Positions 27,857 through 42,617 of a stretch of DNA of 64,000 bases are shown in pieces. The notes under the pieces were generated by a model that saw nothing but the letters and a program-made list of their open reading frames with translations, ran no database searches and was not told the origin of the DNA. The DNA is taken from contig CP092081.1 in assembly GCA_022226935.1 (NCBI GenBank), positions 2,592,846 through 2,656,845 of the forward strand. The letters are read 5' to 3'. Position 1 is the first letter of the stretch; every line of letters starts with the position of its first letter. The translations under genes were made by a program, and so were the position numbers. The stretch is from Nitrospira sp. GTDB lineage: Bacteria; Nitrospirota; Nitrospiria; Nitrospirales; Nitrospiraceae.

Positions 27857-28185
27857 ACAGAGCCATGCTCACCGAGACAGGCGACCCGCACAGGGTGGGT
27901 TGCGCAGACACATGCGAAAATGTGGTATAAGAAAGAAACCGTCCATGAAAGTCGGTCGGGGCTTCCTGGTTGGGTGAACGCGAGCACGATCACACCTTTT
28001 GTTGCCCTTAGCGCCTCAGGCTAACTCGGCCTGGGTGACTTGCCCGCCTCCCGTCATCAATTGAGACTCTGCCGTTCCCATGCCGATCCAGGAATGGGTA
28101 CGCTGGGACGCGATGCCGACTGCGACCGGCGCAGTCCGGCGATGACACGACCTGTGAACCGACACATGATGCGAGGAGAAGGACC
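27857..28185. other. Leader region of the zinc-ribbon micro-protein
   Basis: No gene seen. An extended -10 like sequence, TGGTATAAG, lies at 27923-27931. If used, it would give a transcript with a leader of about 250 bases before the small gene at 28186. I found no riboswitch family in the leader; several short hairpins can be drawn but none is compelling. Confidence 0.35.
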
Positions 28186-28356
28186 ATGCCCAAGGCAAGA
28201 AGCGCAAAAAACTGTTACTACTGCGAAGCGGAAGACCGGATTAAAATGACCTTTATGCTCTGCGGGCTCTGCCACCGGCACTTCTGCAGCGCCCATGGCG
28301 TGCCCGACCTCGAGCAATGCACCAAGTGCCTGGAAGCCAGCGAAGAAACGGAGTAA
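28186..28356 (+). CDS. Zinc-binding micro-protein, 56 aa
   Basis: A 56-codon gene with GAGGAGAAGG just before its ATG. Eight cysteine/histidine ligand candidates fall in pairs: CYYC at 10-13, CGLCHRHFC at 26-34, His37 and CTKC at 45-48. The arrangement C-x2-C ... C-x2-C-x2-H ... H ... C-x2-C resembles an AN1/B-box or treble-clef finger that binds two zinc ions. Such fingers bind protein, nucleic acid or ubiquitin-like partners in other organisms; here the role is unknown. No partner gene is adjacent. Confidence 0.75.
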   Translation: MPKARSAKNCYYCEAEDRIKMTFMLCGLCHRHFCSAHGVPDLEQCTKCLEASEETE

Positions 28357-28530: not shown

Positions 28531-29091
28531 TTAAGCAGTCGGCTTCTTCCGCCGTTTCTTCTCGATGCCCACCATGACCGAGACCCGTGCCTGCTTGGAT
28601 AAGGCTTGATCGATCCGGCTTTTGCCGTTGGTCGTGAGAATCACCAGGCCGTTGTGGTCTTCGATGCGCTGCAGCAGGTGTGCCGCTCCCGCATTGGCAT
28701 AGTGGCTCGCGTCGGCCGTGGCGGGCCGGTGCTTGCCGAACAATGCATCGGCCCCATCAAAAAACAAAATCGACCCGCTGCGTTCAGCGTCGTCGAAGAC
28801 CCGATTGATATTTTTCTCCGTCTCGCCGACCCGCTGGCTCACCACGGACGAGAGGTTCACTTTCGATAAGTCGAGCTGCAGCTCTTCCGCGACCAGTTCG
28901 GCGGCTTTGTTCCTGCGCAAGGGCGTGGAGCCGGATAAGACGACGACCGCCACCGATGCCTTTCCAGTCCGAGTGGCCTTGGCGCGGCGTGCCGGAGCCG
29001 TCTTCTTCTTGGTCTCGGCTTTCTTCACCACCTTCTTCTTCGTTGTCTTCGCTGCCGCCCTCGCGGGCCGCTTCCTTTTATTTCTCACCAT
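28531..29091 (-). CDS. P-loop-less AAA-like protein with basic N-terminal tail
   Basis: 186 residues. The first 45 are Lys/Arg/Ala-rich and histone H1-like. The remainder aligns by eye with the core of small AAA+ ATPases: where the P-loop GPPGTGKT would be, residues 54-61 read GSTPLRRN, so the glycines and lysine are lost. Walker B is altered to SILFFDGADALFG (107-119; Gly instead of the catalytic Glu). The sensor-1 segment ILTTNGKS is kept, and the domain stops before the arginine finger and lid. ATP hydrolysis is therefore unlikely. The ATG at 29091 has GAGGACT upstream. Paralogue at 41804-42370. Follows the helicase at 29173 by 81 bases, same strand. Confidence 0.75.
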   Translation of the reverse strand: MVRNKRKRPARAAAKTTKKKVVKKAETKKKTAPARRAKATRTGKASVAVVVLSGSTPLRRNKAAELVAEELQLDLSKVNLSSVVSQRVGETEKNINRVFDDAERSGSILFFDGADALFGKHRPATADASHYANAGAAHLLQRIEDHNGLVILTTNGKSRIDQALSKQARVSVMVGIEKKRRKKPTA

Positions 29092-40112: not shown

Positions 40113-41015
40113 CTAGATCGCCAGGCTGCGTCTGATCTGGAGGACGATGGCATCCGGTGGAAGGGCGGCATCGATTAGCAGCGCATCGGCCGGCTCCTCC
40201 AGGATCGCCAGCTGGCTGTCCAGGAGTTCCGGTCGCATGAAATGGCCCCGGCGACCGGCGAGACGTTCGCGAAACAAGTCGGCCGTCCCTTTCAGATAGA
40301 CCAATCGCAAGCAGTCGCCACACCCCTCCTCTACGATGGTCCGATACGTCGCCTTCAACACGGAGCAGGCAATGACGGCCGGCTGATTCATGCGGACCTG
40401 ATCGACGATGGCCACATGCAGCCGTTCGAGCCAGGGACGGCGATCGGCATCGGTCAACGGATGGCCGGTTCGCATCTTGTCGATGTTCGCGGGCGGATGG
40501 AACTCGTCCCCCTCCACGAACCGCCAGCCGAAGACGTCTGCCAGACAGCGACCGATCGTGGTCTTTCCTGCCCCCGAGACACCCATGATCAGGATGATCA
40601 GAATGCGACGCCGTTCGACACGTGCTTCAGGCCCGCTCTCCGGAGTGGCCACTCCCGGAGTCACGGCGGAAGAAGGCCCCTTGCTCGATGTATCGGCGGC
40701 AAGATAGGAGATGATCAAGGAGGCGTCGCTGATTGGATCGGTGGTAAACGGCGCGTCGTGACGCCTGGTCACCGCGGTCGTGAGGCGTTCCGCCGCCTGC
40801 CTGACAGGAAGGGGAAAGATTCCCTGCTGCTGAATGCGACGCAACTGCGCCATCGTATCCGCCTGGCGTGTCGGTTCACCGCGACCGGCCGCCCAGGATT
40901 CGGCGGCAACAGTCACTGCCCGCCGCGCACAGACTCGCGCCTTTCCTTCGTTGCCGCTATCCCAGGCTTGCTTCGCGGCGGAGAGCTCCCGAGCAATGCG
41001 TGATGGAGGCGACAT
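40113..41015 (-). CDS. Gluconokinase with N-terminal helical extension
   Basis: 300 residues; gluconokinases are usually about 170. Residues 138-300 are the kinase: P-loop MGVSGAGKTTIG (144-155), WRFVEGDEFHPPANIDKMRTG, the lid region around DDADRRPWL-like TDADRRPWLERLH, CSVLKATYR and a C-terminal VLQIRR. It phosphorylates gluconate to 6-phosphogluconate for the pentose phosphate or Entner-Doudoroff routes. Residues 1-110 are a separate helical domain (SAAKQAWDSGNEGKARVCA), HEPN-like in feel but unproven, joined by a Ser/Pro/Gly linker. No other sugar gene is adjacent. Confidence 0.85.
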   Translation of the reverse strand: MSPPSRIARELSAAKQAWDSGNEGKARVCARRAVTVAAESWAAGRGEPTRQADTMAQLRRIQQQGIFPLPVRQAAERLTTAVTRRHDAPFTTDPISDASLIISYLAADTSSKGPSSAVTPGVATPESGPEARVERRRILIILIMGVSGAGKTTIGRCLADVFGWRFVEGDEFHPPANIDKMRTGHPLTDADRRPWLERLHVAIVDQVRMNQPAVIACSVLKATYRTIVEEGCGDCLRLVYLKGTADLFRERLAGRRGHFMRPELLDSQLAILEEPADALLIDAALPPDAIVLQIRRSLAI

Positions 41016-41548: not shown

Positions 41549-41794
41549 ATGACGTGGATCGTCTATATTTTGGAATGTGCCGACGGCAGCCTCTACACCG
41601 GCATCACGAACGATTTGGAGCGCCGGATACGGGCGCATGCGAGCGGAAACGGGGCGAAATACACGAGACGCCGAGGACCGTTTACGGTGCGGTATACCGA
41701 ATCACTGGAGAGCAAAGGCGCCGCGCTCCAACGCGAGGCGGCTATCAAGGTGCTGGACCGAGCGGCCAAAGTGGCGCTGCTGACCACTCCGTAA
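41549..41794 (+). CDS. GIY-YIG nuclease-like protein (YhbQ type)
   Basis: 81 residues covering the GIY-YIG domain: VYILECADGSLYTGITND (the YIL ... YTG pair), RRIRAHASGNGAKYTRRRGP (catalytic Arg) and LQREAAIKVLDRAAKV (catalytic Glu). Free-standing members of this size, such as YhbQ/UPF0213, are probably DNA-cutting or -binding repair-related proteins; this is by family. It is convergent with the second P-loop-less AAA-like gene, with 9 bases between the stops. Confidence 0.88.
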   Translation: MTWIVYILECADGSLYTGITNDLERRIRAHASGNGAKYTRRRGPFTVRYTESLESKGAALQREAAIKVLDRAAKVALLTTP

Positions 41795-41803
41795 TCTCGC
41801 CCC

Positions 41804-42370
41804 TCACTTCTTTTTCGCGATCTTCTGTTGTGGCTTCACCGCCGGCGTGATTTTCTTCTTCGACGCCTTTTTCTTCGCGGTCCCGCCCAACACCATGACC
41901 GGCTTTTCCGCAGAAAAGGCTTCTTCGATACGGCTCTTTCCATTGGTGGCCAGGATGACAAGACCTTGATGCTGCTCGATGCACTGCAGGAGATAGGAGG
42001 CCTCACTGTTCGCATACCGATCGTAGGCCTCATTGCCTTGCGTCCGTTTGCCGAACAAGGCATCGGCCTCGTCAAAGAAGAGAATCGATCCGTGGCGATT
42101 GGCCATATCGAACACACGCGTCACGTTTTTTTCGGTCTCGCGCGCATGGGCACCGACGACCGCCGATAAATCCACCGCGGCAAGAGGCAATTGCAGCTCC
42201 TGCGCCAGGACCTCGGCCGCTTTTTGCCGACGGAGTGGGGTGGCTCCGGCTAAGACGATGACGGCGCCGGATGGTGTGCCGGCACGTGCGTTTTTGGTCT
42301 GCTTCACAGGCCTGGTCTTTTTTTGCTGCGGCGTTTGCTTCTTACGCCGCGTTCCTGTTGCACCTGCCAT
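41804..42370 (-). CDS. P-loop-less AAA-like protein with basic tails at both ends
   Basis: 188 residues. A basic N-terminal tail (1-30, TRRKKQTPQQKK) precedes an AAA-like core. The P-loop position reads LAGATPLRRQKAAEV (40-54), without the glycine-rich loop and with RR in place of the GK. Walker B is intact (SILFFDEADALFG, 95-107), followed by YDRYANSEASYLLQ and the sensor-1 ILATNGKS. The Lys-rich C-terminal tail is KKKASKKK and more. Unlike the paralogue at 28531-29091, the Walker B glutamate is retained. The ATG at 42370 has AGGGATGAAGACC upstream; 42379 is an alternative. Confidence 0.75.
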   Translation of the reverse strand: MAGATGTRRKKQTPQQKKTRPVKQTKNARAGTPSGAVIVLAGATPLRRQKAAEVLAQELQLPLAAVDLSAVVGAHARETEKNVTRVFDMANRHGSILFFDEADALFGKRTQGNEAYDRYANSEASYLLQCIEQHQGLVILATNGKSRIEEAFSAEKPVMVLGGTAKKKASKKKITPAVKPQQKIAKKK

Positions 42371-42617
42371 GGTCTTCATCCCTTTCCGCCTCTAGATTGG
42401 CCCTTGTCACACTTCCGTCAGAGAAACAGGCGCTGAGTATAACCGGTTCTTGTTTTTGTCGCTGAATTTCTTCGTATTCGAACGGAAATCGGTCGATCGA
42501 CATAGACTGATGGAACGCGGAACGACCGCAGCTCTCTTGACCTTGCCGGGACGCAGATGCAAGGTTACGTCAGCATCCGGCATAGGCCACCCTTCCACGA
42601 TGTGTTGGAGACGCAGC

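Follow-up and report, generated by a model that had tools for sequence, protein, structure and literature searches.

Two genes on the minus strand of the Nitrospira DNA analysed here (the window, 64,000 nucleotides) encode small paralogous proteins of about 187 residues each, copies A and B, in which an AAA core without its ATP-binding P-loop and without its C-terminal lid is combined with basic tails. The sequences of the two copies speak strongly for a loss of ATPase function. We put at about even the chances that these are lid-less AAA pseudo-ATPases whose core has probably been turned into a scaffold carrying cationic, nucleic acid-binding tails. AAA proteins without activity have been described before, for the most part as components of larger assemblies. 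In A and B, the bare AAA core is a small free-standing protein, present in duplicate, that bears cationic tails and has a fixed arginine motif where ATP would bind. The features of the two genes are as follows.

41804–42370, minus strand: copy A, an AAA core lacking P-loop and lid, with two basic tails, 188 aa; start codon taken from the family alignment
42266–42370, minus strand: copy A, N-terminal basic tail, approximately residues 1–35; mean K+R 30% and D+E 2% over 25 orthologues; pLDDT below 50 for residues 1–32
42221–42247, minus strand: copy A, Walker A site replaced by GATPLRRQK, residues 42–50; approximate dN/dS 0.028 over 12 codons
42050–42082, minus strand: copy A, Walker B motif LFFDEADALFG, residues 97–107; D100 and E101 in 25/25 A copies
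41939–41956, minus strand: copy A, sensor-1 strand ILATNG, residues 139–144; Asn in 23/25 A, 21/22 B and 15/17 C copies
41804–41884, minus strand: copy A, C-terminal basic tail where the lid would be; mean K+R 39%, D+E 1%; arginine-finger RR absent
28531–29088, minus strand: copy B, a paralogue with the design of copy A, Walker B Glu changed to Gly
28903–28929, minus strand: copy B, Walker A site replaced by GSTPLRRNK; approximate dN/dS 0.018 over 12 codons

Predicted fold and motifs of the two copies

The open reading frame of copy A spans 41804–42379 on the minus strand, and its start was placed at the ATG at 42370 (MAGAT...) on the basis of the family alignment and an SD-like AAAGGGATG. From there the protein runs from a basic tail through the AAA core into a second basic tail. 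The P-loop site is GATPLRRQKAAE in copy A, with sensor-1 reading LATNG, and GSTPLRRNKAAE in copy B, in which the Walker B motif is LFFDGADALFG. The PF00004 (AAA) bit scores of the two copies are 54.2 and 59.6, against a curated cut-off of 21.2; on copy A the match covers profile positions 15–119 of 131 (2.6e-14), and in both copies it starts only at position 14–15 because the P-loop is missing. A structure predicted from 24 sequences (mean pLDDT 62.7, which is moderate, with the core mostly at 60–83 and the tails below 50) contains the five strands and the helices of the AAA large subdomain without the lid. Foldseek and VIA-align placed this model with p97, Rix7, Msp1 and FtsH (p97 D1: Z 13.8, rmsd 3.1 over 132 residues), and a profile search of PDB sequences returned Rix7 at 3e-21. 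Profile scores and predicted model place both copies in the AAA (PF00004) fold family. CDC48/p97, Rix7 and Afg2 have the same large alpha/beta subdomain fold but, unlike A and B, are hexameric ATPases with a lid, a P-loop and arginine fingers. The possibility that a lid is encoded further 3′ of copy A was rejected, since the stop codon of the neighbouring GIY-YIG gene is about 10 bp away and leaves no room for it.

Motifs were compared across 25 A, 22 B and 17 C copies, C being a single-copy relative present in 23 genomes of a sister genus, together with 19 full-length relatives. The Walker A signature GxxxxGK[ST] is found in none of the 64 family copies but in 19/19 full-length relatives (as GxxGTGKT). 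At this site the family has the loop G[AS]T[PAV]LRRxK, whose R47, R48 and K50 (numbered from MAG in A) vary little or not at all. The sequence-only reading had described the P-loop as lost in copy A and in its paralogue and had seen a conserved design in this loss together with the basic tails; both Walker A sites are indeed replaced, the design recurs throughout the alignment of A, B and C, and no homologue with a normal Walker A, which would have spoken for a sequence-level accident, lies within this clade. That reading also took sensor-1 and Walker B to be kept. The sensor-1 Asn is present in 59 of the 64 copies. The Walker B Asp-Glu is retained in every A (25/25) and C (17/17) copy, but not as a trait of the whole family, being found in just 5/22 B copies; 16 of these 22 orthologues have Gly at the Glu position, 5 have Glu and 1 has Asp, so that the catalytic residue is replaced in 17. 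Even closely related copies differ in which of Glu, Gly or Asp they carry, as expected for a non-catalytic residue.

Other elements of an AAA motor that the sequence-only reading had passed over are gone as well: the arginine fingers and the lid and, in A and B, the pore-loop aromatic. The arginine-finger RR that follows the sensor-1 strand in 19/19 full-length relatives is PE in A and R/K-Q in B, and is variable in C. The C-terminal helical lid with sensor-2 is absent, and the chain stops 13–30 residues past the last core strand, in the basic tail. The pore-loop aromatic is kept in 16 of 17 C copies and mostly lost in A (His in 21) and in B (Arg or Gln for the most part); this speaks against substrate threading by A and B. 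AAA proteins need the P-loop, the arginine fingers and the sensor-2 lid for hydrolysis and, since all three are missing here, the family should be unable to hydrolyse ATP in the way of AAA motors. Judged by Walker A, arginine fingers and lid, A and B would not qualify as active AAA ATPases, and the automatic label 'AAA ATPase' on these genes would mislead.

Distribution, selection and gene neighbours

At least one of the two copies occurs in 28 of the 29 genomes of the genus (A in 25, B in 24), with only G004 lacking both. Where A and B are on one contig they are usually 12–14 kb apart and gene order is conserved. Beyond the genus and its C-bearing sister genus, a few more divergent short relatives were found in single genomes of other genera. 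The large genus g15 has one divergent member only, so the family appears to be confined to part of the Nitrospiraceae. The B site is empty, with no trace of B, in G004 and G013, and because several genomes are without one or both genes the function would be dispensable in some members. A search of IMG/VR for a phage origin returned one AAA relative only, and among plasmid records there were 303 matches, none of which covered as much as 80% of the protein.

Selection was gauged by approximate pairwise Nei-Gojobori dN/dS averaged over all pairs, values which are rough at such high synonymous divergence, although the contrast is large: 0.068 (A), 0.078 (B) and 0.155 (C) for the core, 0.028, 0.018 and 0.078, respectively, for the 12 codons of the P-loop site, and 0.3–0.5 for the tails. 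The fixation of G[AS]T[P/A]LRRxK under strong purifying selection suggests that this loop is a new functional or structural element. The tails of A, B and C hold their composition (K+R 30–46%, D+E 1–4%) while their sequence drifts, as expected for a composition-driven disordered cationic tail; in this composition, and in pLDDT values below 50, they match the cationic disordered tails of nucleoid-associated and RNA-chaperone-like proteins.

With 28/29 genomes carrying A or B and the core under strong purifying selection, the feature lies far beyond chance. The alternative that these are pseudogenes, or decay products of an AAA gene, could appeal to the missing lid, P-loop and fingers and to one broken A copy in the very fragmented genome G019 (L032). 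It is scarcely credible, given a core dN/dS of 0.07–0.16, reading frames intact in all other copies and a replaced loop that is fixed across two genera, and selection and distribution together rule it out. The proposal of a selected family in place of decay is thereby borne out by the 28/29 genomes, by C in the sister genus and by the low core dN/dS. Strong selection has maintained the family in two Nitrospira genera, and its hosts are nitrite oxidisers of environmental importance.

The gene neighbourhoods raise another explanation, in which A and B would be partners of adjoining nucleic-acid enzymes. A GIY-YIG gene (41549–41794, plus strand) is convergent with A and is kept alongside it in the genus. 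Copy B lies about 85 bp downstream of the stop codon of a ResIII-type helicase gene on the same strand, and this helicase was the neighbour of B at all B-bearing loci inspected. We regard such a partnership as improbable. The helicase is present in 131 of 175 genomes of the taxonomic family, mostly without B, and it stays in place where B is cleanly absent: in G004 and G013 it is followed directly by a small gene (the homologue of 28039–28353) on the RF3 side. As for the GIY-YIG gene, it runs convergently towards A, and the surroundings of the single-copy C genes yielded no homologue of it. The partnership was rejected in favour of general synteny. The GIY-YIG neighbour, once taken as a hint of a nucleic-acid role, is no functional clue, and neither is the helicase, whose co-occurrence had been suggested as a test and which is found with or without B.

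Descent of the core and its possible function

In a tree of the core (97 rows, 140 columns), A, B and C are separate clades (support 100/99, 100/99 and 98/90), and these three together with two divergent short relatives group apart from full-length ATPases and from the remaining short AAA proteins (97/82). Since A, B and C form one clade, the P-loop appears to have been lost once, in a shared event that preceded duplication, and not independently in the two copies as had been supposed. A is placed nearer to C than to B, with support of 91/54, from which we draw no branching order. A and C also have a neighbouring gene family in common, represented by the N-terminal part of the 40113–41015 product. 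This gene (minus strand) encodes an unnamed N-terminal domain joined to a kinase domain (SKI/AAA_33 match), and in the sister genus homologues of the N-terminal domain lie next to C in divergent orientation.

Within the same genome, the nearest relative with an intact domain is a protein of 797 aa (L078) with a PF22977 winged-helix domain and an AAA domain, the latter 49% identical, and it is flanked by two proteins with Pfam eCIS_core domains (L078:3897–9863). This relative had escaped the sequence-only reading. Best similarity and the 140-column tree, though no resolved branching point, make it probable that the parent was an ATPase of the WHD-AAA type from an extracellular contractile injection system (eCIS). 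ATPases of this type (PF22977 + PF00004) resemble A and B in the AAA core (~50% identity), the GETEKN helix, the FFDEADALFG motif and the sensor-1 strand; they have, however, an intact P-loop, two finger arginines, a pore-loop aromatic, a lid and an N-terminal winged helix, none of which is found in A and B, where basic tails are present instead. Neither PADLOC nor NCBIfam returned more than weak local matches, to IetA and to classical AAA proteins. The best model in both was the IetA/IteA anti-phage ATPase (NF042959, PADLOC IetA), with local similarity in the AAA core, but the match is partial, does not include the P-loop and scores 43.7 bits against an equivalog cut-off of 510.

We propose that a CDC48-like ATPase, in all likelihood one of the eCIS WHD-AAA type, gave rise to a protein consisting of its AAA core alone. 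As the sequences show, lid, arginine fingers and P-loop have disappeared from this core; two disordered cationic tails were added, and the new loop was fixed and kept by selection. The core would act as a folded hub. Arg-Arg-x-Lys opens helix 1, on the former phosphate site, where it may pair with the Walker B acids and so mimic an occupied site and fix the shape of the core; alternatively, it could be part of an anion-binding patch. Both tails would grip DNA or RNA electrostatically, in the manner of a small nucleoid-associated or RNA-chaperone protein. From Arg-Arg-x-Lys and the two cationic tails we infer that nucleic acid is the most likely ligand, and that A and B bind DNA or RNA. A further version, which we consider somewhat unlikely, is a bacterial chromatin or RNP protein of a new kind, in which the dead AAA core still self-associates through its old subunit interface and histone-like tails coat the nucleic acid, with its origin in a reused ATPase domain of a contractile injection system.

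The conservation of Walker B Asp-Glu in all A and C copies, together with that of the sensor-1 Asn, goes beyond the obvious need of a scaffold and could reflect residual ligand binding. These residues, along with R47, R48 and K50, which are fixed where phosphate would have been bound, would be compatible with a non-canonical nucleotide or polyanion sensor, in which polyphosphate, ppGpp or a nucleotide is read by Arg-Arg-x-Lys, Walker B and sensor-1, and the tails relay the state. The Walker B Glu of copy B is Gly or Asp in some of its close relatives and retained in others, and so is not needed in that copy at least; we judge a sensor of this kind to be unlikely.

Known inactive AAA-like domains include FtsHi and the clamp-loader delta subunits. 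These and the Torsin cofactors LAP1/LULL1 resemble A and B in that an AAA fold without hydrolysis has been reused as a protein module; Torsin cofactors, FtsHi and clamp-loader delta act inside larger assemblies, whereas A and B have cationic tails and no lid, fingers or P-loop. By comparison with the Torsin partners, the dead core might be a regulatory or poison subunit that inserts into or caps full-length eCIS-type WHD-AAA rings and thereby tunes them. The ~50% identity to the full-length AAA domain would suit this role, as would the helix-2 GETEKN and many core residues that A and B have in common with the full-length WHD-AAA relative. Nevertheless, it is very doubtful, because near-complete genomes such as G015, G016 and G028 have A or B with no full-length relative found, most C-bearing genomes are likewise without one, and the arginine that Torsin cofactors donate (PMC7175109) has no counterpart in A and B. 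An obligate partnership with the full-length eCIS-type ATPase was rejected because the two do not co-occur in these genomes. A folded scaffold for nucleic acid-binding tails is the reading that we prefer.

Other short AAA proteins

A literature search on P-loop-less or degenerate bacterial AAA proteins and on Nitrospira basic proteins, in which subscription journals were thinly covered, returned nothing relevant. A parallel was found in another Nitrospirota family (f34), where 11 of 37 genomes encode short lid-less AAA proteins of 167–222 codons (L209–L219). The P-loop sites of ten of these proteins include DPSGTGKT, DPSGKRKT, DPSGTGEA and GSSDDLKT, none being a full GxxxxGKT, and the proteins form their own branch of the tree (100/98). 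They resemble A and B in having a stand-alone lid-less core with a degraded P-loop, but differ in keeping one or two arginines at the finger site and in lacking long basic tails. On these sequences, lid loss accompanied by P-loop decay has probably taken place more than once, and the stages of P-loop loss seen in f34 make a route from motor to non-motor protein testable.

Several further short AAA proteins were observed. L184–L191 were noted with L209–L219 among separate short lid-less proteins with degrading P-loops. A short AAA protein without a P-loop is encoded in a Verrucomicrobia MAG (L173:5734–6417), and another in G284, from a different family of the same order (L188:5173–5778), has a signal-peptide-like hydrophobic N-terminus. 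Three f2 genomes encode lid-less AAA proteins of ~200 aa (L193, L194 and L195) in which the P-loop is intact or nearly so, reading GPSGTGKK, GPSGTGKM and GPKGTGKT.
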